In this document: positions 19,349 to 39,043 of the stretch, one piece after another
Layout: every line of letters starts with the position of its first letter
How positions within the stretch are numbered: the stretch's first letter is position 1
Source: Anabaenopsis elenkinii CCIBt3563
GTDB taxonomy: Bacteria; Cyanobacteriota; Cyanobacteriia; Cyanobacteriales; Nostocaceae
NCBI RefSeq assembly: GCF_015245355.1
Contig: NZ_CP063311.1
Coordinates: 2,639,217-2,703,216, forward strand
Length of the DNA: 64,000 nt
Reading direction: 5' to 3'
Program-made: the position numbers and the translations under genes
Notes under the pieces: generated by a model
The model's input: only the letters and a program-made list of their open reading frames with translations
What the model was told of the DNA's origin: nothing
Database searches by the model: none

Positions 19349-19429
19349 TTTGTGATTTTATCTAGGTTTTCCTGCTTGTACCAGTATTACCTAAAATTCT
19401 ATTTTCGCTTGGGTGGAAAATACCAAACA

Positions 19430-19791
19430 GTGAAGCTAATAGTTTCAGGGAACAGGGAACAGGGAACAGGGAATAGGGAACAGGGAATAGGCAATTGATG
19501 TGTACTTCATTAGCCTAAAAAAGGCTTTAATGTATAATTTTTTTATAGGAGACTGTATAAAACTGTCAATAACTCACTAAACCAAAGTAGTGAAGCTGAC
19601 TGTCAAGTAAGTAAAGCTAATAGTTTCAGGGAACAGGGAACAGGGAACAGGGAACAGGGAATAGGGAATAGGCAATTGATGTGTACTTCATTAGCCTAAA
19701 AAAGGCTTTAATGTATAATTTTTTTATAGGAGACTGTATAAAACTGTCAATAACTCACTAAACCAAAGTAGTGAAGCTGACTGTCAAGTAG
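19430..19791. repeat. 181-bp tandem duplication with GGGAACA heptamers
   Basis: Two copies, about 19430-19610 and 19611-19791, lie head to tail with a spacing of 181 bp. Each holds a run of GGGAACA/GGGAATA heptamers, then GGCAATTGATGTGTACTTCA, the hairpin AGCCT...AGGCT, and ends in CTGACTGTCAAGTA. They differ in heptamer number. A partial third copy is at 58079-58150. The heptamers resemble the short tandemly repeated repetitive sequences of heterocystous cyanobacteria. The repeats fill the space where brxA would be expected before brxB. Confidence 0.85.
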
Positions 19792-24009: not shown

Positions 24010-24296
24010 TTGCTACTTCCAAGGCTAAATGTAACCATTGATTCCGGTGGTTGAGCGAAGTCGAAACCATGATCGCCCGAATTTGCTACTTCCAAGGCTA
24101 AATGTAAACATTGATTCCGGTGGTTGAGCGAAGTCGAAACCATGATCGCCCGAATTTGCTACTTCCAAGGCTAAATGTAAACATTGATTCCGGTGGTTGA
24201 GCGAAGTCGAAACCATGATCGCCCGAATTTGCTACTTCCAAGGCTAAATGTAAACATTGATTCCGGTGGTTGAGCGAAGTCGAAACCATGATCGCC
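24010..24296. repeat. Four tandem 73-bp repeats between brxC and pglX
   Basis: Copies begin at 24010, 24083, 24156 and 24229, each reading TTGCTACTTCCAAGGCTAAA then TGTAAACATTGATTCCGG and GGTTGAGCGAAGTCGAAACC, ending GATCGCCC. They are nearly identical (first copy ACC instead of AAC; last ends early). The core GAGCGAAGTCGAA occurs again in reverse orientation in the palindrome at 24354-24381. There are no unique spacers, so this is a satellite-type repeat, not CRISPR. Confidence 0.92.
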
Positions 24297-24353
24297 CCAA
24301 TAATCTCTAAAATCTCTTGGGGTTATCTTGACCTCACTTCCTCCCCCTGATAT

Positions 24354-24381
24354 TGTTCCCTTCGACTTCGCTCAGGGAACA
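24354..24381. repeat. 28-bp palindrome in front of pglX
   Basis: TGTTCCC at 24354-24360 and GGGAACA at 24375-24381 flank TTCGACTTCGCTCA, the reverse complement of the core of the 73-bp repeats. It is 44 bp upstream of the chosen pglX start. It could be an RNA hairpin in the leader, a protein site or simply a widespread cyanobacterial repeat. Confidence 0.75.
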
Positions 24382-24424
24382 TATTGATTTCAGCACTATC
24401 TCAGGATTTAAAACTTTAACTGTC

Positions 24425-27400
24425 ATGAATCGCACTACTGTTAAAAACTTTGCAAATTGGGCCCGTGGTTACTTAAAGCAACAAATAGCAGCGCGTGCTG
24501 CTCAATTCGGTGTCACTCGGAAAACAATTATAGAACCGCAATTTGTTTCTGGTGGTTTATTGGTAGCTGGACAAATCCTTAACACTGCAGAAGCTAACCA
24601 ATATCAACAGTTAAAATTACGTTTAGATGAATTATCCCAACAGCAGGAGAACGCTAAAACTCCAGGAGAGAAATTAGCTAAAGCTGTAGAATTATTAATT
24701 GATGAAATTGCTTACACCTGGTTTAACCGGTTAGCAGCCTTGCGGTTTATGGAGGTAAATAATTATATTGGGCGGGTGTTGAGTAGTAGTGACCCGAATT
24801 TAGTAGACCCTGATATTTTGCGGGATGCTTACTCTATTGCGGAGATGGAAGAGTTACCAGGATTAAACCTGGAAACACTCACCCAGTGGCGTAAGTTTGC
24901 TAGTCGAGAACCTAACCCCGATGGGTATATTTATCGTCGGATGTTGTTAGCTCAGTGTGAAGCTTTATCAGCAAGTATTCCCACCTTATTTGACAAAAAG
25001 AAAAATTATCAAGGTCTATTTTTACCGATAAATCTGCTTAATCAAGATTCAATTATACGGCGATTTGTTAAAGATATTGCTGAGGAGGATTGGCAAGATA
25101 TCGAAATAGTAGGTTGGCTATATCAGTTTTATATTTCTGATCGTAAAGATGAAATTATTGGGGCGAAATCTAAAATTGAGGCTCAGGATATCCCCGCCGC
25201 CACCCAATTATTTACTCCTCGGTGGATTGTCCAGTACATGGTAGAAAATAGCCTAGGGCGGTTGTGGTTGGAGTCTCACCCAGAGTCAAAGTTACGGGAG
25301 AAAATGCCCTATTTTTTAGAGGGTGGGAAACTGGGCGATGTTGGTCGTGAGTCATCGGTGATTAATTCTGTGGAGACAGTAGGGGAAACAAAAGAACCTT
25401 TACTTGAACTTCTTGATCAAGCTGAAAAAACCTCTTTACCTTTGCACTCCCGCAATACCTCCCCTAGTCTTCCCCAGACTCCCCAAGAATTAACAGTAAT
25501 TGACCCTGCTTGTGGTAGCGGACATATTTTAGTATATGCCTTTGATTTGTTGTTAGAAATTTATAAGGAACAGGGTTATTTAGAAAGGGATATTCCCGCA
25601 CTGATTTTAACTCATAACTTATATGGTTTAGATATTGATGAACGGGCGGTACAATTGGCTAGTTTTGCAGTTGTGATGAAAGCACGGGCGGTTAATTCGC
25701 GGATTTTGCGGAAACCTCCGGCTTTGAATATTATGACTGTGGGATCTACCCGTAGTCAGGTTTTACCTCCAGTACCTGAATTAAATCCTGAAGATTGGGA
25801 ACCTTTACTAGATGCTTTTGAGGATGCGGATAGTTTAGGTAGTTTGATAACGCCACCAGATTTTGATGGTGATAAGTTGCGTAAGCAATTAGATGATCTC
25901 CAGGGGAGTAATCCTATTTTTAAGGAAAGTGTTATTCCCCTATATAATTTGATTTCTCAAGCTGAATTGTTGACGAAACAGTATTGGGTTGTGGTGGCTA
26001 ATCCACCTTATATGGGGAATAAGAGTTTAAATGAAGTTTTAAAGAAATTTGCTAGTAAAAATTATCCTGATTCTAAGTCAGATACTTTCTCTATGTTTGT
26101 TGAACGTTTTTTGAGCATGATTTTAGAAAACGGATTTATTGGTGTAATGACACCTTTTACATGGATGTTTTTAAGTTCTTATGAAAAACTACGTAAAACC
26201 ATATTAAATAATACTACAATAACAAGTCTGGTTAGACCAGAATATCATGCTTTTTTCGATTCTGCTTATGTACCAATATGTACTTTTACCCTTTTAAATA
26301 GAGCTTTACCACAATATCAAGGAACTTTTATTGATCTTAATCAATTTTATGGAACAGATTTACAACCAGTTAAGGTTTTAGAAGCTATTAAAAATCCTGA
26401 TTGTGGGTATCTTTATTATGCCAAGTCTGCTGATTTTGCGAAGATTCCGGGGTATCCTATTATTTATAATCTTTTAGATCAGTTTAGAAATTCTTTCCAA
26501 AATAATAAATTATTATCTGATTTTGGAGGGTTTAAGAGAGGAACGTCTACATCAAATAATGAAAGATTTTTAAGATATTGGCATGAAGTTAAATTATTGG
26601 TTAAAACCGAGCCACCATCAAATAAATGGTTTCCGTATAATAAAGGTGGTGAGAAACGGCGATGGTATGGAAATTTAGACTACTTAATAAACTGGGAAAA
26701 CAATGGGGAGGAAATAGCTAACCATAAAAAATCCTACCTCAGAAATGTTGAATACAATTTTTTACCTTCTATAAGTTATACTTCACTGACTTCGGGTGAA
26801 CCATCATTTAGATTTTACAGAAATAATGCCCATGATCAGGCAGGAAACTTTTTTCCATTAAACGATATTGAAACCCTAGAATGTTTATTATCATGCCTTA
26901 ATTCAAAGCCAATCTTACAAATAATTAGCTTGCTAAATCCAACATTAAATATTCTAATAGAAGAATTAAATAAAATTCCAGTAATACTTACTGGGTCTAA
27001 ATTAGATATATCACAGCACTGTATATCTATATCAAAACAAGACTGGGACAACTTCGAGACCTCCTGGGACTTCCAAACCCACCCATTATTACGCCACAAG
27101 ACCAAACACCTGAGTGAAGCCTTTGACATTTGGCAAAACCAAGCAGAAACAGCCTTCCGAGAACTGCAACACCTAGAAGAAGAAAATAACCGCTACTGGA
27201 TAGAAGCCTACGGACTGCAAGAAGAACTCACCCCAGAAGTACCCGACGACCAAATTACCATCCGCAGAGCCGACCTAAACAGAGATATCCGTTCCCTCAT
27301 CTCCTACGCCGTCGGCTGTATGATGGGACGCTATAGCCTAGATCACCCCGGACTCATCCACGCTGGTCAACCCTTTGACCCCGGACTACACCAAACATTT

Positions 27401-28060
27401 ACCCCCAGCAGTAATCCCATCATACCCATCACAGACCAAGCATACTTTGATAAAGATATTGTTACCCAGTTTATGGAATTTATGCGAGTTGCATACAGTC
27501 CTGACACCCTCATGGAAAACCTCAACTTTATCGCCAACGCCCTCACCCAGAGAAATGATGAAACCCCAATAGACCGCATCCGGCGCTACTTCCTGCAAGA
27601 GTTCATCTCTGACCACATCCGAACCTACAAAAAACGCCCCATTTACTGGTTATTCACCAGTGGTAAAAAACAAGCCTTTGGCGCATTAGTCTACCTCCAC
27701 CGCTACAACCAAGACACCCTCGCCCGTCTGCGGATGGATTACGTATTAGAATTACAAGTGAAATTAGATGGGGAAATGTCCAGAGCGCAACAACAATTAG
27801 ACAGCGCCATAGCCACCACCACCAAGAAAGCAGCCAGTAAACGCCTTAAAGAACTACAAGAACAACAATTAGAACTAAGGGAATACCAAGCCAAACTCCA
27901 ACACTTAGCAGATACACGCATTAAAATTGACCTTGATGATGGAGTGGCGTATAACTACACCCTGTTTAAGGGGTTAGTTTATGAAGGTACAGATTTAAAA
28001 ATGGCAGATTTAGAAAAAGCATCAAAATGGAAACGGGAGTTGTTAAAGCAAGATAGTTAG
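24425..28060 (+). CDS. pglX: PglX, BREX adenine-specific DNA methyltransferase
   Basis: The ATG at 24425 gives MNRTTVKNFANWARGYLKQQ, the expected start of PglX; the frame continues 24 codons upstream but through a palindromic repeat, so that part is probably untranslated. The protein has 1,211 residues. S-adenosylmethionine motif I is DPACGSG at residues 360-366, and the N6-adenine catalytic motif NPPY is at 526-529. The target-recognition part follows and the C-terminus is helical. PglX methylates one strand of the host recognition site, marking self DNA. A low-complexity Ser/Pro-rich insert lies before motif I (about residues 310-350). The next gene, a helicase, begins 69 bp downstream. Confidence 0.93.
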   Translation: MNRTTVKNFANWARGYLKQQIAARAAQFGVTRKTIIEPQFVSGGLLVAGQILNTAEANQYQQLKLRLDELSQQQENAKTPGEKLAKAVELLIDEIAYTWFNRLAALRFMEVNNYIGRVLSSSDPNLVDPDILRDAYSIAEMEELPGLNLETLTQWRKFASREPNPDGYIYRRMLLAQCEALSASIPTLFDKKKNYQGLFLPINLLNQDSIIRRFVKDIAEEDWQDIEIVGWLYQFYISDRKDEIIGAKSKIEAQDIPAATQLFTPRWIVQYMVENSLGRLWLESHPESKLREKMPYFLEGGKLGDVGRESSVINSVETVGETKEPLLELLDQAEKTSLPLHSRNTSPSLPQTPQELTVIDPACGSGHILVYAFDLLLEIYKEQGYLERDIPALILTHNLYGLDIDERAVQLASFAVVMKARAVNSRILRKPPALNIMTVGSTRSQVLPPVPELNPEDWEPLLDAFEDADSLGSLITPPDFDGDKLRKQLDDLQGSNPIFKESVIPLYNLISQAELLTKQYWVVVANPPYMGNKSLNEVLKKFASKNYPDSKSDTFSMFVERFLSMILENGFIGVMTPFTWMFLSSYEKLRKTILNNTTITSLVRPEYHAFFDSAYVPICTFTLLNRALPQYQGTFIDLNQFYGTDLQPVKVLEAIKNPDCGYLYYAKSADFAKIPGYPIIYNLLDQFRNSFQNNKLLSDFGGFKRGTSTSNNERFLRYWHEVKLLVKTEPPSNKWFPYNKGGEKRRWYGNLDYLINWENNGEEIANHKKSYLRNVEYNFLPSISYTSLTSGEPSFRFYRNNAHDQAGNFFPLNDIETLECLLSCLNSKPILQIISLLNPTLNILIEELNKIPVILTGSKLDISQHCISISKQDWDNFETSWDFQTHPLLRHKTKHLSEAFDIWQNQAETAFRELQHLEEENNRYWIEAYGLQEELTPEVPDDQITIRRADLNRDIRSLISYAVGCMMGRYSLDHPGLIHAGQPFDPGLHQTFTPSSNPIIPITDQAYFDKDIVTQFMEFMRVAYSPDTLMENLNFIANALTQRNDETPIDRIRRYFLQEFISDHIRTYKKRPIYWLFTSGKKQAFGALVYLHRYNQDTLARLRMDYVLELQVKLDGEMSRAQQQLDSAIATTTKKAASKRLKELQEQQLELREYQAKLQHLADTRIKIDLDDGVAYNYTLFKGLVYEGTDLKMADLEKASKWKRELLKQDS

Positions 28061-28129: not shown

Positions 28130-31100
28130 ATGGAATTTGAAACTTGGGGTTATCAGTATATAAGGGGAGCAAGCGACCAATTTATCTGTCGTATTGAAGG
28201 AGCAAATGCACTGAATATTTATCCTGAATATAGACAGCGACACGCTCGTGCTGATGAACTGATATCTTTGATTTTAGGTTCAGAACCTTGTGTTTTTTAT
28301 ATTCGTAGAGAGAGACTAGGACGAAATCCAGAATATGAAATTTGGGAATTTATAGTAGCTACAGATAGGGATGATTTTTCATTACCTATAGGCTTAGAAG
28401 AACGTCAAAAAACTTTACAAATTTGGGCAAGTGTTCCGCGAGATGGTAGAGGATATTTAGGTTTAATCAAAATTAATTTAGTCAACTTAGAACAAGGTCA
28501 CGATAACGCTTTTTCTTCACTACGACTGATTCTCCTACAACGTGACCGTCTAAATAATATTGGTATCCCAGAAACAGCATTTGCAGAAATAGTTGCTATG
28601 CCTATTTCTACCTCTTATGTCCCGACAAAAGACCATATTCAAGGATGGAGCAATTACTTAAAAATCCAAAAAAGCATTGCAGAAAAAAGTCAGTTTTATG
28701 TTCCTACTGTTTCCTTCAGATACTCTCCATCTAAAAATTCCATAGATTTTACGATTAAACCGGACTTAGCAACAAGTAATGGCTTTGTTTCTATCACACC
28801 AGAGGGATTTTGGAAACGCGCTAAAAAAGCTATAAATAAACCTTTAAAATATCTTGCCCATGCTGAGGAAATACACTATAGATATGCGGATCAGGAATTA
28901 GGGAATATTCACCAAGTTAGACCTGATATTAACCAAATTGAAGTGAAATTAGAACCTGATATAGCCGAATCTTTTACAGAAGAAGATTTTACTCTACCTG
29001 AAATATTGTTTTTTAAAGATAATGGTAGCTTGGCTCAAATTCGTTGGCAAGAAGATGCTTTGAGAAACTTAAGGGATGGCCATACCCATAATTTTAATTT
29101 AAGTACCTTTTTCTTTGAAGCTTCTCAGGCTAAACCATTAGTAGAAACTGTTCAAATAGCTAAACAAGATTTATTTCTAGATAAAGCTAATGATAGCCAA
29201 TTAGCAGCAGTGGAAGCAGTCTTAGCTGCGGAAGACTTAATTTTATTACAAGGTCCTCCTGGTACGGGTAAAACAACCGTTATTACCGAAATTTGTTATC
29301 AAATAGCAATTAGAGGTGGACGTACTCTAATTGCTTCTCAAGCCAACTTAGCAGTAGACAATGCTTTAAGTCGCTTACCTCACCATCCCGCATTGCGTCC
29401 TGTGCGAGATGGTAATAGTGGCAGCGTTAGCCGAGAAGGAGAAAGTTTTTTAAGTGCAAATGTTGTCAAGAAATGGCTAAATGATACATCTGCTGAATGT
29501 GAAAATCGCTTATCAAAGCACCAAAAAGTTGTTAAAGGTTTACGTCCATTATTGACATCGTTAGACCGATTTCAAGATTATTTACAATTTGAAGATAATT
29601 TTCCTCAACAGCGACAAGAATTACTCAATACTAAACGTATTCGAGATTTGGAATGTCAAGAAAAAAGAGAAATTTATAATAAATTACGAGAGGAACAAGA
29701 AAAAAATCAATTAATGCAATCTGAGTTACAACAACTCATAGCATCTAATCAGGTTTTTTGTACTCAGCAACAAATAAAAATTGCAGAGCTAAATATTCGT
29801 AAAAATGAGTTGATTTTAGCAATCAATGAGCTTGAAGAATGGCAAAAAACAGCTAATTCTCAAATTTATATAATACTAAAGCGATGCTTGCAACAACGTG
29901 ATAGCTTTACAGAAGCTTTGATTCCATTGCCATCACAGTTACAAATTATTGCACAAGAAGTATGCCAGCAACCTTGGAAACAATATTTTGATGAATGCCA
30001 AGTCGAAATAAATAACTTCATTTTTCAATTAAATGAATATGATGAGGTGTATAAAATTGGTAATCAAATATATTGGTTGTTTTTGCAGAAACAACAAACA
30101 TCCGTAAATTTAGAAACATCCAATTCCCAAGTTTCTCAATTTAAAGAGTTCCTTGCAGGTAAATTACAAGGCAACCGACCTTTAGCAGCAATCAATAAAT
30201 TACATCATTATTGTCAAATTGCCATTAGAGAAATAAATCAATTGACTGAGACTAGAAGTCTGGAAATTACAACTATTAAATTAGAAGCTATCAAGCAACA
30301 ATATGAAGAGTTAATAAAAAATCTTCAATCAGTAAATTGGGAATTTAAATTATATCAACTTACAGCTATAATTAGCAAATCGATTACTGTAAGTGCTAAA
30401 AATCTTCTGAATCAATTACTAAGAGATACTGAGGAAAAGCTTTTGCAAATTTCTGAATATCAAAATAATTTGCAGGCTGAATTAGAAAATTTAAAAATAC
30501 TGGAAACTATTAATAATTATATAGAGTGTCAAGTTGAAAACATGATAACTATTACTAACAGAGCTTTGAATGAATTAACAGAAACAGAAAATATAGTTCA
30601 AGAGGTTCAAAACCAAATAGAAGAATTAGAATCGAATTTAGAAAAATATAGAAATTGGTGGGTAAGTATTTACAAGGAAATACCAGACTGGCTCAAACCA
30701 GATATTCACGACCAGGATTTATTTAATACCGAAATTCTGAGAACAAAAATTCTAATTAAGTTTGATTTATGGGAACAAGAACTTGAGAAATCAGAAGCTT
30801 ACCTTAACCAGTGGGAACGAACTATTCAAAAATGGATTGACAAATTACGTCAACCATCTGACATAGAGTATGAAGCTTTACGAAAAACATATTTGGATAA
30901 CGCTAATGTTATCGGTGTTACCTGCATGAAAGCAGCAAAATGTAATTACTTACAAAAATCTAGCCACTTTGATGTAGTCATTGTTGATGAAGTAAGTAAA
31001 AGCACTCCGCCAGAATTACTTATACCAACATTGAAAGGTAAAAAAGTTGTGATGATTGGTGATTATCGTCAGTTACCAGCCATTTTAGATGAAGAAAATT

Positions 31101-31864
31101 TAGATGAACTTGCTGAAGAACTTTCTATCCCTAAAGATAACCTGCAATTTTTAGAGCAGTCTTGGTTTGGTCTGCAATTTCAAGCAGCACGAACTAGCCA
31201 ACCAAGTATAGCTAAAAGACTAAATGTTCAGTATAGAATGCACCCACAAATTATGGAAGCAATCAACCAATTTTATGATGAAGGTGATGGTGGACTTACC
31301 TGTGGGCTTACTAGGCCTGATATTGAACGCGCACACAATTTAGCAGGTTCAGTCATCAAAGAAAATAATCATATTATGTGGGTTCCAATACCTCTAGACA
31401 GAAAGTTCGGGGAAAAGCAAGATGGCACTTCATATTATAACGAGGTAGAAATTAGTAAAATTCAAATTTTATGTGAACAGATGGAACAGTCTTGGGCAAA
31501 TAAAGTTGCTCATGGTGCGCCTAAAAAAGAAATAGGAATTATCACTTTTTATGGTTCTCAATTAAAACGAATTGAAACGACATTTCCTCGAAACAGATTT
31601 CCTTCCCTTGATATTCATACTGGAACAGTTGACAGATTTCAAGGTATGGAAAAACCCGTCATCATTGTCAGTATGGTCAGGAATAACCCGCATAGTAAAT
31701 TTGGGTTTGCTCAAACGCCCGAAAGAGTTAATGTTGCTTTTTCTCGCGCTAAAGAATTACTCATAATTGTAGGTTGCCATGATTTATTTACGCAACTTCC
31801 CATATACCAAAAAGTTTCACAAGTTGTACATAAATACGGAGGTTTTATAGATTTATTTAAGTAA
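28130..31864 (+). CDS. SF1 (Upf1/Dna2-like) helicase with long coiled-coil insert
   Basis: A 1,244-residue protein starting MEFETWGYQYIRGASDQFIC after a GAGGAGA ribosome binding site. Residues 1-~360 are an unrecognised N-terminal domain. The helicase motifs are: Walker A GPPGTGKTT (375-383), DEVS (953-956) in motif II, GDYRQLPAI (motif III), QYRMHP (from 1034), VDRFQGME (from 1167) and VAFSRAKE (about 1202-1209, motif VI). About 560 residues between motif Ia and II are dominated by coiled coil. COG1112-type helicases of this kind occur in phage-defence systems such as Mokosh. It lies between pglX and pglZ, outside the canonical BREX set, and is likely an accessory defence gene. Confidence 0.85.
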   Translation: MEFETWGYQYIRGASDQFICRIEGANALNIYPEYRQRHARADELISLILGSEPCVFYIRRERLGRNPEYEIWEFIVATDRDDFSLPIGLEERQKTLQIWASVPRDGRGYLGLIKINLVNLEQGHDNAFSSLRLILLQRDRLNNIGIPETAFAEIVAMPISTSYVPTKDHIQGWSNYLKIQKSIAEKSQFYVPTVSFRYSPSKNSIDFTIKPDLATSNGFVSITPEGFWKRAKKAINKPLKYLAHAEEIHYRYADQELGNIHQVRPDINQIEVKLEPDIAESFTEEDFTLPEILFFKDNGSLAQIRWQEDALRNLRDGHTHNFNLSTFFFEASQAKPLVETVQIAKQDLFLDKANDSQLAAVEAVLAAEDLILLQGPPGTGKTTVITEICYQIAIRGGRTLIASQANLAVDNALSRLPHHPALRPVRDGNSGSVSREGESFLSANVVKKWLNDTSAECENRLSKHQKVVKGLRPLLTSLDRFQDYLQFEDNFPQQRQELLNTKRIRDLECQEKREIYNKLREEQEKNQLMQSELQQLIASNQVFCTQQQIKIAELNIRKNELILAINELEEWQKTANSQIYIILKRCLQQRDSFTEALIPLPSQLQIIAQEVCQQPWKQYFDECQVEINNFIFQLNEYDEVYKIGNQIYWLFLQKQQTSVNLETSNSQVSQFKEFLAGKLQGNRPLAAINKLHHYCQIAIREINQLTETRSLEITTIKLEAIKQQYEELIKNLQSVNWEFKLYQLTAIISKSITVSAKNLLNQLLRDTEEKLLQISEYQNNLQAELENLKILETINNYIECQVENMITITNRALNELTETENIVQEVQNQIEELESNLEKYRNWWVSIYKEIPDWLKPDIHDQDLFNTEILRTKILIKFDLWEQELEKSEAYLNQWERTIQKWIDKLRQPSDIEYEALRKTYLDNANVIGVTCMKAAKCNYLQKSSHFDVVIVDEVSKSTPPELLIPTLKGKKVVMIGDYRQLPAILDEENLDELAEELSIPKDNLQFLEQSWFGLQFQAARTSQPSIAKRLNVQYRMHPQIMEAINQFYDEGDGGLTCGLTRPDIERAHNLAGSVIKENNHIMWVPIPLDRKFGEKQDGTSYYNEVEISKIQILCEQMEQSWANKVAHGAPKKEIGIITFYGSQLKRIETTFPRNRFPSLDIHTGTVDRFQGMEKPVIIVSMVRNNPHSKFGFAQTPERVNVAFSRAKELLIIVGCHDLFTQLPIYQKVSQVVHKYGGFIDLFK

Positions 31865-31967: not shown

Positions 31968-32202
31968 CTGACGGGGTGACAAAAACCTTTGAATTAAATA
32001 CGCAGCAAGGGTTTTGAAGGTTTGCGCCTTGAAAAAGTAAACATCATTTTCTGGCTTTATTGATTCTATTATCAATAACTAAACCCCACAAGTCTGATTT
32101 TTATGTTGGAATAGGTTTCCAATTTGTTTTAATCTTTTCAAGGCTGACTCTTTCATAATCCTTATTCGATAAGGGTTTGAGCCTAAGTTGTCACCCCTTC
32201 AG
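31968..32202. mobile_element. 235-bp MITE with 9-bp target duplication
   Basis: The ends are inverted repeats CTGACGGGGTGACAA (31968-31982) and TTGTCACCCCTTCAG (32188-32202), with one mismatch. They are flanked by perfect direct repeats ACCAAACTA at 31959-31967 and 32203-32211. A second, internal inverted pair is GCCTTGAAAAAG/CTTTTCAAGGC. There is no ORF. A CTGA-type end and 9-bp target duplications are features of IS4-family elements such as IS10 and IS50, so this may be a non-autonomous relative. It ends 22 bp before the darT-like start and probably supplies or separates that gene's promoter. Confidence 0.88.
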
Positions 32203-32224
32203 ACCAAACTAATTAGTCTTTAAT

Positions 32225-33832
32225 ATGAATAAAATTGACCCTCGTTTAAGCAAAATAGTAGAAAAAATTGAATCCCAAGGATATAAAGTTATGTCCGGAC
32301 GTTATGTTCGCTATAACGTTCAACAAAAGCTAATTAAAGTGACTATTAGCGAACTACGAGAAGTAGATATATTTGAGGAGTTTATATTAGATACAGCAAT
32401 CAATATTATTCCATCAGTAACTACAGAAGATTTAGCAAATGCTCTGGGTATAGATTATAGCCTATTAAAAAGCGTAACAGCAAATCTTCAATCGTTAAAA
32501 TCTTTGGAATTAACTTCAGATTCAACCTTAAAAATTACAGATTTTGGCAAAAAAATCTTTCAGGAATATAATTCTGTATTAGAACCTTCTTATGGTCAAA
32601 ATATTTATGCTATTGCTGACCCATTAACACAAGAAATTAGTATTAATAATACCCGGTTGCGAAATGTACCTTTAGATGTAAAAAATTTATGCCAATTTAT
32701 TAAATTCGATGAATATCCTCAACTTTCTAATTTAACAATTGAAGATATACATAACCTTGCTATCAACTCTGAGGCAGTTTTTCTAGATAGAGAAAGAAAC
32801 CAAGAAATTAGTGATTATCAAGAGTTGTCTAGTATTTCGATTATCAGAAAGAAAGTAGCAATTTTTCGCGTTGTAGATTCAGAAGAAAAATATAGTATCA
32901 AAATATTTAGTGAGGAAGAAGATGACCCAGAAGAGTTAGAAAGAGCATCAAGTTATTTAAGTGATATTTTCAATTCTGAATATGGAGAACAAGTAGCTTG
33001 GGAAGAATTATTTCAAATATCTGATACGGGAATAATACAACCTAATTTTACACCGAGTATTGAGTATAATATTTACCTACCAGATGGAAATTTAGCAAAT
33101 ATATCTTTTGGTGCTGATGCTTTTCTGTTAGATGAAAGAACGGAATTAACTGGTTCAGTAGAAAATCAAATTCTACCAGCATCTTCACGACAAAATGCAA
33201 TTGAAGCTGAGAATATACAATCTTTTGTTTCACAAAGAAGAATTGAAAGAATTGTACATTTAACAAGATTGGAGAATTTAATAAATATTTGTAGTTCAGG
33301 TGGTATACTGTCTTTACAGCAATTAATAACTAGAAACATCAATACTAATGCTTTTGATGGTACAAAACCCGAAGGACAGAGGTACAAAAATCATGTCAAT
33401 TGTAGTTTGACTTATTATAACTTTTTTATGCTCTATGGACTTGTACATAAATCTGTAGAACCTGTAGTTTTGTTATATATCAAACCAGATTATTTATGGA
33501 AACAAGGAACAGAATTTTGTAAATTCAATGCAGCTACAGGTCGAGGCCGTCATATAGCAGCCGGTTATCAAACACTAAAAAGTTTATTTGAGGATACAGT
33601 AAGAGATAGGAAGGGTTTACAAGACCGGGATAATAAACCAATCAACTTACCTACTTGTATTCAAGCTGAAGTTTTGATAAAAGATGGTATTCCCTTAGAA
33701 GACATAATGGAGATCGTAATTCGTTTTCCACGCGATGAGCAAAATGTAAAGCAAGCAGGATGGAGAGGTAAAATCCGAGTATCACCCCGCGATTTTGACT
33801 GGCATTCTGAGTGGATTGTTAGAGATAGTTAA
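32225..33832 (+). CDS. DarT-like ADP-ribosyltransferase with large N-terminal extension
   Basis: A 535-residue protein. The C-terminal ~200 residues resemble DarT (DUF4433), the toxin that uses NAD+ to ADP-ribosylate bases of single-stranded DNA: RRIERIVHLTRLENLINI (H345, N351) matches the family opening IYHITHxxNL, and TCIQAEVLIKDGIPLEDI (E482) matches the QAEFLV...LIEEI segment with the catalytic glutamate. The first ~330 residues are not seen in classical DarT; residues ~55-115 look like a winged helix (DLANALGIDYSLLKSVTANL) and the middle is unrecognised. The MITE just upstream isolates it from the helicase gene. The next gene, after 28 bp, is an ADP-ribosylhydrolase, suggesting a toxin-antitoxin pair. 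Base or target specificity is unknown. Confidence 0.7.
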   Translation: MNKIDPRLSKIVEKIESQGYKVMSGRYVRYNVQQKLIKVTISELREVDIFEEFILDTAINIIPSVTTEDLANALGIDYSLLKSVTANLQSLKSLELTSDSTLKITDFGKKIFQEYNSVLEPSYGQNIYAIADPLTQEISINNTRLRNVPLDVKNLCQFIKFDEYPQLSNLTIEDIHNLAINSEAVFLDRERNQEISDYQELSSISIIRKKVAIFRVVDSEEKYSIKIFSEEEDDPEELERASSYLSDIFNSEYGEQVAWEELFQISDTGIIQPNFTPSIEYNIYLPDGNLANISFGADAFLLDERTELTGSVENQILPASSRQNAIEAENIQSFVSQRRIERIVHLTRLENLINICSSGGILSLQQLITRNINTNAFDGTKPEGQRYKNHVNCSLTYYNFFMLYGLVHKSVEPVVLLYIKPDYLWKQGTEFCKFNAATGRGRHIAAGYQTLKSLFEDTVRDRKGLQDRDNKPINLPTCIQAEVLIKDGIPLEDIMEIVIRFPRDEQNVKQAGWRGKIRVSPRDFDWHSEWIVRDS

Positions 33833-33860
33833 AAGCAGCTTTTTGATTAATTAGTTAACT

Positions 33861-35261
33861 ATGCAAGAAAAAAATCAATCATTGTCAATTGACTCACTTG
33901 TTGATCGCTGTGCTGGTTCGATTACTGCTGCTGCTGCTGGCGACGCACTGGGTTGGATGACGGAATTTATTCGCTCTCATGATGACCTCAAACGCAAAAT
34001 GGGTGTAGACCAAGTTACTGAATATCAATCATGGAGTAAGCGTGTTGGCGGTCGCTTCCAAGGTTATGAGGATTATATTATTGCTGGTGAATACTCAGAT
34101 GATACCCAACTAACTATATGCTCTGCTGCTTGCATATCCTCAAATGGATGCTTTGACTATCATACATTTTGCAAGTTTGAGTATCCGATGTGGTTAGAAT
34201 ATGCTCGCGGTGCAGGTGGTACTGTTAAAGAAGCAGCTGATAAAATACAGCGTAAGTCGGCTGATTGGAATAGTAACTTTTTCAGCCGGAAGATAAAAGA
34301 CAGAACGATAGACTACCGCGATGGCGCAGCCAATGGTGCAGCTATGCGGATATCACCTCATGTCTTAGCTAATGGTGGACGTTGGGAACAAGCTGAAGCT
34401 GATATTTGGCGTAATTCGATTATCAGTCATGGTCATCCTAGAGCTATTATTGGTGCAATTCTCTATGGATATGCACTGTATACTGTATTACAATTATCAG
34501 AATGTATTGTAGGTCAGCAATTAATTGAAATACTTGGCCATTGGGTAAAACAGTTGGCAATCCCAAAAATAGCTGCTTTAAAAACATGGGAAGCAGAATG
34601 GAATAAAGGAAGGGTAGAATCCTTTGAGGCAGTATTTGAGCAAACTAAACAAGAAGCTGTGGAGAAGTTGCGCCTAGTTTGGTTAGGATTGCGTAACGAT
34701 GAATTACCCCAAAGCATACTTAAGCAATTAGGTTGTTTTGAGCAAGCTACTAAAGGGTCTGGGTTGGCAACTGCGATCGCTGGTATATACCTGTTTGCCC
34801 GTCATCCAGAACAAACCCAACAAAATATTATTACCGCAGCTAATATGATAGGCAGTGATACTGATTCCATTGCTGCTTTTGTGGGTGGCTTAGGTGGTGC
34901 TGCTTTTGGATTGAAAGCTATTCCGGAAAAATGGCGATCGCAAATTCAAGATGCACCATTTTTGATCTGCATAGGTGAATATTTAGCCAAAATCTCTGCT
35001 GGTGAACATGACAAGATGAAAATTCGTCCAGGTCATAACGGTATTAAACTGGGTAAAGCCTTGTCCCGTCAGGAAGTACATAGTGATATGCGAGTTGTAC
35101 ACCATCGGTTAGGTGCAGGCACAATTACAGAAGTGGATAAACAATCCCTACTGACTCAAGGGCGAACAGTAACAATTGTACGTATCAATTTTGATATTGG
35201 TCAAAGCTGCAAGTTAGCCTTTCGTGGCGATACTCCCAGTGAAACATTGTTTATTCTTTAA
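33861..35261 (+). CDS. DraG/ARH-family ADP-ribosylglycohydrolase with C-terminal extension
   Basis: A 466-residue enzyme of the dinitrogenase-reductase-activating/ARH fold, which removes ADP-ribose with two metal ions. Metal ligands are seen in YSDDTQL (S79-D80-D81-T82) and GSDTDSIAAF (G331-S336), and SITAAAAGDALGWMTEF and ISHGHPRAIIGAILYGYAL are family blocks. The C-terminal ~75 residues (MRVVHHRLGAGTITEVD, VRINFDIGQSCKLAF) form a small barrel-like module like the nucleic-acid-binding tails of some helicases, unusual for the family. The adjacent darT-like gene suggests it acts as its antitoxin. A standard role on dinitrogenase reductase cannot be excluded, but no nif genes are near. Confidence 0.85.
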   Translation: MQEKNQSLSIDSLVDRCAGSITAAAAGDALGWMTEFIRSHDDLKRKMGVDQVTEYQSWSKRVGGRFQGYEDYIIAGEYSDDTQLTICSAACISSNGCFDYHTFCKFEYPMWLEYARGAGGTVKEAADKIQRKSADWNSNFFSRKIKDRTIDYRDGAANGAAMRISPHVLANGGRWEQAEADIWRNSIISHGHPRAIIGAILYGYALYTVLQLSECIVGQQLIEILGHWVKQLAIPKIAALKTWEAEWNKGRVESFEAVFEQTKQEAVEKLRLVWLGLRNDELPQSILKQLGCFEQATKGSGLATAIAGIYLFARHPEQTQQNIITAANMIGSDTDSIAAFVGGLGGAAFGLKAIPEKWRSQIQDAPFLICIGEYLAKISAGEHDKMKIRPGHNGIKLGKALSRQEVHSDMRVVHHRLGAGTITEVDKQSLLTQGRTVTIVRINFDIGQSCKLAFRGDTPSETLFIL

Positions 35262-35773: not shown

Positions 35774-38362
35774 ATGAACACCAACCGTATCCAAAGCCAA
35801 CTAGAAAACATCTTCCAAGATTCCGCCCGTTGGTATCACTCACAAAGGCGGATAGTATTTTGGTACGACCCCGACCAGCAATTTACCAGCATCTTCAACG
35901 AACTGCAAATAGAAGAAGTGGAAAAACTCCAACTTGCTGATACTCCGTTCACCGTCAAATATCGCTTACTGATTGAATACCCCAATCAAAACTTTCTGCT
36001 GTATGCTCCCTTCCTGGAACCAGAACCCCAAGAAAATTGGCTTTTAGATATCCAAAAAAGCGGTTTCACCTTTTCCGCTGACCCAGCAGCCTTAATTTAT
36101 GCTGATTTAGGACTACATCAGCGACGTTTAGAAAAAACCATTCGTCAACACTCAAAATTCTTCAGCCGTAAAAACCGGGCTGAAGACCTCCAAGCAATGG
36201 CTATTTCTCCTGATAGCGATGAACGGGGATTACTTTTAGCCATGTTATCTGTTCTCGCAAATTTAAAAGTCCCTGATCCTAGTGGCTTAATTCGCCAGGT
36301 ACTATTGCAAGGATTATTAGAAACTGATAATACCCTATGGTCTGAGATTGTAGAACTTGTTTCCCCACAAACCTTCTGGGATATTGTTCAAGAACACACA
36401 GGTTTTGCTTCCCCCAACCCCAGCTTAAACAAATTATGTATACATTTACTCATTACCCATTTCGCCAAATCCTTACATGGTGAGCTTCCCGGACAGTTAG
36501 CAGACAAAGTTATCACCCCAGGACAAAGAGCCTATGCTTTTATTGACCAATGGATGCGAGATCAACAAGATTCCCCTGGGTGGCAAAATTTAAGTGGTGA
36601 AATAGCAGAGCAGCTGCATATTTTTGAGGTCATTGAAAATGAATCACCAGCAATTTTATATGAAGCATCTAGTTTTGAAGCTGTAGATCTGGTGTTAATT
36701 CGCGCTTGTGTGAAAACCCTGCAAACTGGTTTTACTCAAATCTCCACTCCCGGAACAGAAACACCAACAGTGGAAGTAACCCCTTGGAAAGACTGGTTAA
36801 AAGCCCGTGATACTTTGATTTGGTTTCCTCGGTATGAGAAAATTTACCAAGCCTTAGAAGCTGCGATCGCACTTTGGGAGTTACGACAGCGGTATTTAGG
36901 TGGATTTCGCCAACCTGCGCCAGCTTTATTCAAAGCTTACGCCAGTGATTTACACAAATTTGACCAAGCATATCGCCATTTTATCTTTGCTAGCGATCAA
37001 GCTCAAGGGGATATTCTCAAAGGATTAATTGAAGATATAGAAAACTTTTACACCCAATGGTTTTTAGATAAACTAGGTTCAGCTTGGTCAGATGCTCTGG
37101 GTAACAGTTGGGAACTAACAGATATTCCGCCACAGCGGGGATTCTTTCGTAGATATGTATCACCAATTTTAGACCGGAGCGACAGAGAAAAAGCCTTTGT
37201 AATTATTTCTGATGCTTTGCGCTACGAAGTAGCCAGGGAACTAGCCGCAGTCATTAAAACAGAAGTCCGGGGTGAAACCAGCCTAGAACCGGTTTTAGGT
37301 ATTTTACCCAGTGTTACCCGCTGGGGGATGGCAGCACTTTTACCAGGGTCAAAGTTAGAACTAACACCAGATAATGATGATGTATTGCGGGATGGTATGA
37401 GTACTAAAGGCACAGCAGCCAGACAAAAGGTACTCAGCCAAAATAGCCGTGTAGCAGTAACAGTACTCAATGCTAAAGACTTGCTAGATATGAACACTGA
37501 CGCGGGAAGGGCAGCAGTGCAATCTTATCGCCTAATCTACATCTATCATAATATCATTGATGCCATTGGAGATCAAGCATCTAGTGAACGCCAAGTATTT
37601 TCTGCTTGTCAAGATGCCATAAAACAGTTATTGAGATTAGTGAAAAGAATTTGTAACTCCCTGAATGGTACAAATGTGATTATCACTGCTGACCACGGCT
37701 TTTTATATCAACGTCGTCCCATTCAAGAAGCAGATAAACGACCCATCCCCAGTGATGAAGCTGTATTAGAAAGTAAACGTCGCTACTTATTAGCAACCAA
37801 ACCGGTAAGTGATACTACGTTACTGCATTTCCAACTACCCAACACAACAGAAAATCTTTTTGCCATAGTCCCCCGTGGGTCATTACGCTTTGCTGTTCAA
37901 GGTGCAGGGTCACAATTTGTACATGGTGGTGCATCTCTACAAGAAATTTGTGTACCTGTAATTACTTACCATCACCAACGAGCAGTTAAAAAAAATGAGG
38001 GACAACCCAGAAAGGTGGGGGTACAGGTAAATGCTACAGTCCGCAGGGTGACAAATAATCGATTTAAATTAATATTAGTACAAACTGAAGCTGTAGAGGG
38101 CAGATGGCGATCGCGTCAAATTACAGTTGGTTTCTATGACCCGCAAACCGACACCCCCATTACAGATGTACTTGGAGTGAATTTAACCAGCACAAGTCCT
38201 AATCTGAGCGATCGAGGAATTAACTTAAGATTGACTGTCAATACCGCCAGTCCTCCCACTAAGGCTGATTTAATTGTCAAAGATGCAGATGACCAAAGCG
38301 AATTGCTGCGAGAAACATGGATAATTAGTTTAGGTATTGCCAATGACTTTGGTGATTTTTGA
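35774..38362 (+). CDS. pglZ: PglZ, BREX phosphatase-fold protein
   Basis: An 862-residue protein with the PglZ alkaline-phosphatase-like domain in its centre: ISDALRYEVARELA (D480) and TADHGFLYQRR (D640-H641) supply metal ligands, and FVHGGASLQEICVPVI follows. The N-terminal part (ARWYHSQRRIVFWYDP) is typical of BREX type 1 PglZ. PglZ is essential for BREX methylation and exclusion; in the Streptomyces Pgl ancestor it is toxic without PglX neutralisation. Here it is separated from pglX by ~7.7 kb of accessory genes and is followed by the four-helix gene and brxL. The start codon is 49 bp from the antisense xisI start. Confidence 0.93.
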   Translation: MNTNRIQSQLENIFQDSARWYHSQRRIVFWYDPDQQFTSIFNELQIEEVEKLQLADTPFTVKYRLLIEYPNQNFLLYAPFLEPEPQENWLLDIQKSGFTFSADPAALIYADLGLHQRRLEKTIRQHSKFFSRKNRAEDLQAMAISPDSDERGLLLAMLSVLANLKVPDPSGLIRQVLLQGLLETDNTLWSEIVELVSPQTFWDIVQEHTGFASPNPSLNKLCIHLLITHFAKSLHGELPGQLADKVITPGQRAYAFIDQWMRDQQDSPGWQNLSGEIAEQLHIFEVIENESPAILYEASSFEAVDLVLIRACVKTLQTGFTQISTPGTETPTVEVTPWKDWLKARDTLIWFPRYEKIYQALEAAIALWELRQRYLGGFRQPAPALFKAYASDLHKFDQAYRHFIFASDQAQGDILKGLIEDIENFYTQWFLDKLGSAWSDALGNSWELTDIPPQRGFFRRYVSPILDRSDREKAFVIISDALRYEVARELAAVIKTEVRGETSLEPVLGILPSVTRWGMAALLPGSKLELTPDNDDVLRDGMSTKGTAARQKVLSQNSRVAVTVLNAKDLLDMNTDAGRAAVQSYRLIYIYHNIIDAIGDQASSERQVFSACQDAIKQLLRLVKRICNSLNGTNVIITADHGFLYQRRPIQEADKRPIPSDEAVLESKRRYLLATKPVSDTTLLHFQLPNTTENLFAIVPRGSLRFAVQGAGSQFVHGGASLQEICVPVITYHHQRAVKKNEGQPRKVGVQVNATVRRVTNNRFKLILVQTEAVEGRWRSRQITVGFYDPQTDTPITDVLGVNLTSTSPNLSDRGINLRLTVNTASPPTKADLIVKDADDQSELLRETWIISLGIANDFGDF

Positions 38363-38415: not shown

Positions 38416-39043
38416 GGGTAGGTTTTTTACATAGAGATTTATAATGGAGAAAGACAAGGTAGACAAGGAAGGATGGACAAAGAAGAAGAACAAAGAAGAA
38501 TTAAAACCCATGAAGATTTAGTAATATATCAAAAAGCGTTTAATGCAGCGATGATAATTTTTGAGTTATCAAAACAGTTTCCTGCGGAAGAAAGATATTC
38601 TCTGACTGACCAAATACGTCGTTCTTCTCGTTCAGTATGTGCGAATTTTGCAGAGGCATGGAGAAAAAGAAGGTATCAAGCATCATTTATAGCTAAATTA
38701 AATGATTGTGAATCGGAAGCAGCAGAAACCCAAGTGTGGCTAAAATTTGCAGTGAAATGTCAATATATTTCCGTAGAGGAAGGAAGAGATTTATATAGTA
38801 CATACAATCAAGTTTTAAGCGGATTAGTAAAAATGATTAATCATCCAGAAAGTTGGTTAATGGGTAACAATTAAGTATTGTTCTCAATGGGGAATGTAGA
38901 ACAATGTTGAAGAATAATACTCAATCAATTGCTTTTAATAGTTCTTAAAGGGGTATTTTTTCACGCCTTGGCATAACTTCCTTGTCTACTTTCCTTCCTT
39001 GTCTTCCAAGTCTTGCCCTCACGACAATGTAAAAAACCTACCC
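38416..39043. repeat. Inverted-repeat-bounded unit carrying the four-helix gene
   Basis: A perfect 17-bp inverted repeat GGGTAGGTTTTTTACAT lies at 38416-38432, with its complement at 39027-39043. A second pair GTAGACAAGGAAG lies inside, at 38459-38471 and 38977-38989. Together they bracket the gene at 38473-38874, which occupies the space between pglZ and brxL. No duplication of the target can be made out. The layout suggests a small unit inserted into the BREX operon. Confidence 0.65.
38473..38874 (+). CDS. Four-helix bundle protein (23S rRNA intervening-sequence protein family)
   Basis: A 133-residue helical protein of the TIGR02436/S23 family, with the signature RIKTHEDLVIYQKAFN, then YSLTDQIRRSSRSVCANFAEAW and KLNDCESEAAETQVWLKFA. 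Relatives are encoded in intervening sequences of spirochaete 23S rRNA, and free-standing copies are common in cyanobacteria and in diversity-generating retroelements (Avd). They bind nucleic acid, but the role of free copies is unknown. It is preceded by GGAAGG directly before ATG. Inverted repeats surround the gene, which is not a BREX component, and it interrupts the pglZ-brxL spacing. Confidence 0.82.
   Translation: MDKEEEQRRIKTHEDLVIYQKAFNAAMIIFELSKQFPAEERYSLTDQIRRSSRSVCANFAEAWRKRRYQASFIAKLNDCESEAAETQVWLKFAVKCQYISVEEGRDLYSTYNQVLSGLVKMINHPESWLMGNN

Follow-up and report, generated by a model that had tools for sequence, protein, structure and literature searches.

A DarT1-like toxin joined to a Mokosh-like helicase and a DraG/ARH-family hydrolase: a putative three-gene defence cassette in a cyanobacterial BREX locus

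Two kinds of antidote to the toxin DarT are named in the literature excerpts on which our background rests: the macrodomain protein DarG and NADAR; reversal of guanosine RNA ADP-ribosylation is reported there for NADARs alone. The same excerpts describe the chemistry and key residues of DarT1, as well as DarT genes linked with different hydrolases (PMC11543638), and DarTG inserted in cyanobacterial type I restriction operons (PMC8883491). They further place MkoA of the Mokosh system among the superfamily 1 (SF1) Upf1 helicases (PMC10925250), and report phospholipase D (PLD) domains in Mokosh types I and II as well as the enzyme BrxU beside bacteriophage exclusion (BREX) loci (PMC10952713). Here we analyse a 64,000-nt stretch of Anabaenopsis elenkinii CCIBt3563 (NZ_CP063311.1, positions 2,639,217–2,703,216; hereafter the window), in which a BREX locus holds genes for an MkoA-like helicase, a DarT fusion toxin and an ADP-ribosylhydrolase of the DraG/ARH family (hereafter ARH). 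With moderate confidence, we read the three genes as a defence cassette in which a helicase-gated DarT1-like effector would mark DNA and ARH would erase the marks on host DNA.

The brxB, brxC, pglX, pglZ and brxL models all gave strong matches in the window, which identifies the locus as BREX. Its pglX gene (24353–28060; PADLOC PglX, E 0 as printed) and pglZ gene (35774–38362; Pfam PglZ, E 1.3e-59) border a slot filled, on the same forward strand, by the SF1 helicase gene (28130–31864, 1244 aa; Pfam AAA_11/AAA_12; PADLOC MkoA, E 1.7e-105), the fusion toxin gene (32225–33832, 535 aa) and the hydrolase gene (33861–35261, 466 aa). A preliminary description of this DNA had placed the last two genes 28 bp apart within BREX; both reading frames and their BREX setting, between pglX and pglZ, hold. 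It had omitted the helicase, which belongs to the same unit as the toxin and hydrolase.

The DarT domain of the toxin (residues 345–521; 33257–33787) matches Pfam PF14487 at 64.8 bits (E 1.2e-17) against a curated cut-off of 22.5, and among PDB sequences its sole distinct match at E ≤ 0.1 is E. coli C7 DarT1 (8baq, E 5.1e-9). On that protein E152, N104 and M71 map to E482, N435 and M402, and the key residues listed in the window protein are H345, K381, E383, M402, N435 and E482. The C-terminal DarT-type domain with H345 and E482 proposed in the preliminary description is present with both residues, E482 aligning with the catalytic E152. The base-facing asparagine and the catalytic glutamate are present in all 13 ARH-linked rows aligned, though in two further ARH-linked copies, L120 and L122, a crude motif search missed the asparagine. 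The RxD motif of DarT1 occurs in 8/13 ARH-linked, 6/8 NADAR-linked and 0/25 macrodomain-linked rows; KPE stands in its place in the window and the three nearest rows, and NPR in L064. Since 16 of the 25 macrodomain-linked DarTs share the base-facing asparagine, we rejected this residue as proof of guanine specificity; the likeness of the domain to DarT1 permits only a guess that guanine is the target base. The ratio of nonsynonymous to synonymous divergence (dN/dS) is ∼0.17 for DarT and 0.11–0.12 for ARH, which suggests that both have been kept functional.

The hydrolase is covered from residue 19 to 356 by Pfam ADP_ribosyl_GH (PF03747, E 1.1e-42) and has the metal-site motifs GDALG (27), SDDTQ (79) and GSDTDS (331). 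Across the six hydrolases aligned, window included, SDDTQ and GSDTDS do not vary, and GDALG is replaced by GDAMG in three; the DraG-type hydrolase with both metal-binding motifs, as first described, is borne out. Against PDB sequences it gave 17 matches at E 0.001, the best being MJ1187 and DraG. It is 74–87% identical to five relatives, some of which adjoin very different toxin front ends, and no other part of the cassette is as well conserved (87% identity to the copy in Nostoc sp. C052). The added tail noted earlier (residues 371–466; 34971–35258) is also real, being conserved in the alignment with relatives, and neither Pfam nor the PDB sequences gave it a convincing match to a known family. 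A likeness of this tail to a UvrD-type Tudor domain, seen by eye, was rejected: the best PDB match had an E of 0.82, no Pfam match was found, and PF21196, run against the source genome, did not pick up the tail.

Among described systems, DarTG1 (DarT1–NADAR) is close in its DarT lineage, the nearest in our tree, in its catalytic glutamate and base-facing asparagine, and in the order of toxin gene and then hydrolase gene. It differs in that the next gene in the window encodes an ADP_ribosyl_GH protein of the DraG/ARH fold, not NADAR, that R52 and D54 are lysine and glutamate in the window clade, and that the window toxin carries an MkoB-like domain in the same chain and comes with a helicase gene. 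DarTG2 (DarT2–DarG) likewise has a DarT with the catalytic glutamate and an adjoining reversing enzyme, but the window has no macrodomain partner, and the DarT tree separates DarTG2 from the half that holds the window (100/99), with RxD in none of 25 macrodomain-linked rows. A full-text literature search found no named DarT–ARH pair in the parts of the papers it reached; de Souza and Aravind (2012), cited in PMC11543638, may already name ARH genes as neighbours of DarT.

The preliminary description had proposed looking for the same gene pair in other genomes, and DarT followed by ARH recurs across cyanobacteria, actinobacteria and proteobacteria, with 19 loci counted (hit H17 left out). These comprise a first group (the window, L002, L034, L003, L061, L062 and L064), a second group (L053, L055, L057, L058, L059 and L060) and plasmids of Shinella (L083), Rhodococcus (L087), Streptomyces (L119, L120), Salmonella (L121) and Cereibacter (L122). 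The pairing of DarT with a hydrolase of a fold other than that of DarG, an earlier claim, is therefore conserved elsewhere. At 16 of the 19 loci the next gene upstream encodes a helicase, MkoA-like at four (the window, L002, L034 and L061) and UvrD-type at all 12 loci of the second and plasmid groups, where it lies directly upstream. No helicase match was seen upstream of the pair in L003 and L062; the L062 DarT is fused to a cold-shock domain, and the N-terminal part in L003 has a weak cold-shock match and a DUF4838 match near the cut-off. In L064 the upstream gene is an aconitase gene, for which reason a unit including it was rejected. ARH thus stays beside DarT while all upstream parts change.

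Two of the UvrD-linked ARH proteins (L053 and L087) end in a glyoxalase/bleomycin-resistance-like domain, of which there is none in the Salmonella copy (L121). A viral origin of the pair was also considered and set aside: the patterns used confirmed no relative of the hydrolase or DarT in viral contigs, and no relative of the DarT domain was found in phage records.

To place these toxins among DarTs at large, we surveyed 386 genomes of the phylum, 43 of which carry DarT, at 49 places in all. The downstream partner is ARH at six places (window included), NADAR at five, taken to be a macrodomain protein at 25 and unclassified at 13; these 25 places form one linked cluster, Pfam having confirmed Macro in 5/25 and NADAR in 2/5, with the remaining partners assigned through BLAST linkage. 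A tree was built from 60 DarT domains, namely 46 of 48 surveyed places (two short ones dropped) and 14 others; it leaves out the ARH-linked L059, L083 and L119–L122. In this tree 12 of 13 ARH-linked rows fall in one 14-row clade (support 99/93), which also holds L037 and L039, both with no ARH seen. This clade adjoins a nine-row group (84/74) of six of the eight NADAR-linked rows and three of unknown partner, and a split with support 100/99 sets the two apart from every one of the 25 macrodomain-linked rows.

The survey also turned up DarT in frames of ∼1940–1970 aa (L069, L070 and L118), followed by a short gene that is Macro by Pfam in L069 and by BLAST linkage in the other two. A further DarT clade has seven members (L073, L106–L110 and L116), six of them ∼390–400 aa long with tyrosine replacing the first histidine; the four downstream genes scanned (L106, L107, L109 and L110) encode no hydrolase.

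The ∼330 additional N-terminal residues of the toxin, pointed out at the outset, proved to be a conserved domain (residues 1–330; 32225–33214; PADLOC MkoB over residues 37–201, E 3.5e-6), and for the possible winged helix a profile gave only weak matches, in two relatives (E 0.013 and 0.046). The full toxin is matched at E ≤ 0.001 in 119 of 192 sampled genomes of the same family, mostly in its N-terminal part only. We inspected 22 loci picked from these hits and from plasmids. By tblastn, a helicase adjoins the N-domain in 19 (L047 having a helicase fragment only); L041 has the helicase and, by the search of the 192 genomes, the N-domain also, and in L052 and L079 the N-domain is present with no helicase seen. 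At 12 of these 22 loci the protein has a PLD motif (HxKxxxxD) where the window toxin has DarT. Of three relatives scanned, two gave PLD signals in Pfam (E 8.6e-4, below the cut-off, and 3.1e-6) and the third (L040) gave no Pfam match, while the PADLOC MkoB model spans the N-domain and PLD region in all three. Because of these PLD motifs and the MkoB coverage, the usual form, as predicted from sequence, is a helicase with an N-domain–PLD protein, and the window form is a helicase with an N-domain–DarT protein.

The helicases sort in the same way. In an unrooted quick tree (L047 dropped as too short, the broken L038 left out) the six DarT-linked rows form one clade, with a support of 100 in the Shimodaira–Hasegawa-like approximate likelihood ratio test (SH-aLRT), apart from 14 others, and the helicase of the window has 1244 aa against 1397–1626 aa in 11 PLD-linked relatives (the fragment left out). 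Compared with Mokosh type I (MkoA–MkoB), the window has an MkoA-like SF1 helicase beside a protein with an MkoB-like N-terminal domain, but DarT in place of the PLD nuclease of MkoB, an extra hydrolase gene and a shorter helicase. The portions of the literature covered by the full-text search held no DarT-bearing Mokosh. The original account of a two-gene toxin–antitoxin pair in BREX therefore stands as to the pairing of DarT with a hydrolase of non-DarG fold, and has to be revised in that the pair is the effector end of a helicase module.

A plasmid of Nostoc sp. C052 carries the cassette in BREX in the same gene order as the window. Synonymous divergence (dS) between the two is 0.60–0.66 for helicase, toxin and hydrolase and 1.4–1.7 for pglX, pglZ and brxL (brxB and brxC yielded no value); against L092, a BREX locus without the module, the BREX genes have a dS of 1.3–2.4. 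At four-fold sites, the Nostoc C052 copy agrees with the window at 386 of 570 positions in the cassette, as against 526 of 1195 in the BREX genes (Fisher p 6.8e-21). The agreement changes near the pglX–helicase and hydrolase–pglZ borders, one stretch near the end of pglX also being high (0.67). We read this divergence as a sign that the three cassette genes moved together, independently of the BREX genes around them. The module was rejected as a core part of BREX, the slot being empty in L094 and L095 and filled by other cargo in L090 and L092 (an AAA_15 gene) and L089 (a Uma2 gene); pglX is broken in L091, the L093 sequence stops short of the slot, and L096 is fragmented. Conversely, no BREX gene was seen near the helicase–DarT loci L061, L037 and L039. 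BREX with accessory cargo such as BrxU is comparable in that an extra defence gene is tied to a BREX locus, but BrxU is a type IV restriction enzyme and the window cargo is a whole cassette of helicase, effector and antidote.

DarT1-like toxins with NADAR are found beside BREX in L054 (7089–8177) and inside a BREX-like locus in L084 (3078–5618), one of the two toxins starting with a cold-shock domain. DarT1-like toxins and BREX have thus come together more than once, which is a further likeness of the window to DarTG1. Elsewhere in the BREX locus of the window are two adjoining 181-bp direct repeats, 98% identical, just 5′ of brxB (19429–19790), a tandem repeat of 73-bp units between brxC and pglX (24010–24301), and a gene for a 23S-rRNA-intervening-sequence/bAvd-like small protein between pglZ and brxL (38473–38874). 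A 132-aa open reading frame lies at the place equivalent to this last gene in L093, a correspondence of position.

These features can be put together as a mechanism in three steps. The SF1 helicase and the MkoB-like N-domain would survey nucleic acid and restrain the effector until abnormal or invading nucleic acid is met, a step modelled on the Mokosh-like arrangement and on the Hachiman helicase, which is described, in the excerpts seen, as restraining its effector until it meets damaged DNA (PMC10925250, PMC12278908). The likeness to Hachiman (HamA–HamB) lies in the proposed logic of a sensor helicase and its effector only: HamB belongs to the SF2 helicases, HamA is a nuclease, and we claim no homology. 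DarT, judging from its DarT1-like active site, would then transfer ADP-ribose from NAD+ to exposed bases of single-stranded DNA, probably guanine, and replication would stop. Finally, as the conserved gene pair leads us to suppose, the DraG/ARH-fold hydrolase would strip ADP-ribose from host DNA and so set the threshold of self-harm. More tentatively, and as a proposal that may well fail, we suggest a third class of reversible DNA-base ADP-ribosylation defence, in which a helicase-gated DarT1-like effector is combined with a DraG/ARH-fold antidote acting on DNA bases, and of which the cyanobacterial form is a Mokosh-like system with PLD replaced by DarT.

Several observations weigh against this reading. 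R52 and D54 of DarT1 are K381 and E383 in the window clade; two of the eight NADAR-linked rows (L071 and L076) fall in the other half of the DarT tree, as does the ARH-linked L064, on a very long branch; the fusion toxin gene is split into two reading frames in Nostoc mirabile; and AlphaFold2 models of hydrolase and toxin, from alignments of three and four rows, had confidence scores (pLDDT) of 38 and 34 and were discarded. Mokosh is described, in the portion of the source available, as degrading viral transcripts (PMC11291487), and the helicase may therefore sense RNA.

Further points of this kind concern the hydrolase. The ARH family is best known for arginine or serine linkages, and it is conceivable, if unlikely, that DarT modifies protein or RNA and ARH reverses that mark, leaving a toxin–antidote pair but no DNA-base system. 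In the excerpts consulted, the known activities of ARH enzymes are on proteins and phosphate ends of nucleic acids (PMC8883491, PMC11833690), the ARH-like SCO5809 and the human hydrolases tested fail to reverse guanosine RNA ADP-ribosylation (PMC11833690), ARH-like proteins of S. coelicolor are inactive on uracil-linked ADP-ribose (PMC13036486), and ARH3 is reported, in the setting of DarT, as unable to remove ADP-ribose from DNA (PMC9967889). On the favourable side, human ARH3 acts on synthetic uracil-linked ADP-ribose at a low but detectable level (PMC13036486). Modification of DNA bases is what the same type of source reports for the characterised DarT1 and DarT2 (PMC11543638); the asparagine and glutamate kept throughout the aligned ARH-linked rows also speak for a DNA-base target, as do the toxin front ends, most of which are nucleic-acid proteins (helicases, cold-shock domain).

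The gating by the helicase is brought into question by a MITE-like insertion (miniature inverted-repeat transposable element; 31968–32203; ends GGGGTGACAA...TTGTCACCCC judged by eye) with a second genomic copy, 89% identical, which parts the helicase gene from the toxin gene in the window. Together with the DarT–ARH pairs seen without a helicase alongside (L003, L062 and L064), it would fit a plain DarT-type toxin–antitoxin pair beside a helicase that exerts no control over the toxin, the N-domain being a leftover anchor. We consider this distinctly unlikely, given that helicase and toxin share their divergence from Nostoc C052 (dS), that their genes overlap by 17 bp there, that the helicase tree sorts by effector, and that a helicase of another subfamily, UvrD-type, occupies the same place at 12 other loci.

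Lastly, helicase–DarT occurs without an adjoining ARH in three genomes, G093 (intact), G173 (where the contig stops after DarT) and G074 (a broken copy); the rest of each of these assemblies yielded no close ARH either, and the hydrolase may for this reason be dispensable. ARH could then have an accessory role, removing free ADP-ribose derivatives or a phage counter-modification, with the helicase alone keeping the toxin safe. We rate this possibility as very unlikely, since ARH, with 87% identity to Nostoc C052 and a dN/dS of ∼0.12, is better conserved than the rest of the cassette and remains beside DarT though everything upstream varies.

Under the reading of a helicase-gated DarT1-like effector with an ARH antidote, ARH belongs to a fold with as yet no demonstrated action on marked DNA bases, and it could reveal a new way of keeping DarT safe; with the DarT–ARH pair conserved in several phyla, the cleaning of DNA bases by ARH is directly testable. 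In this locus a single BREX slot accommodates an entire second, predicted defence system, and the exchange of PLD for DarT suggests that Mokosh-type helicases are a platform with an exchangeable effector. If true, this would amount to a simple rule, in which the helicase senses, the effector varies and the antidote follows the effector.

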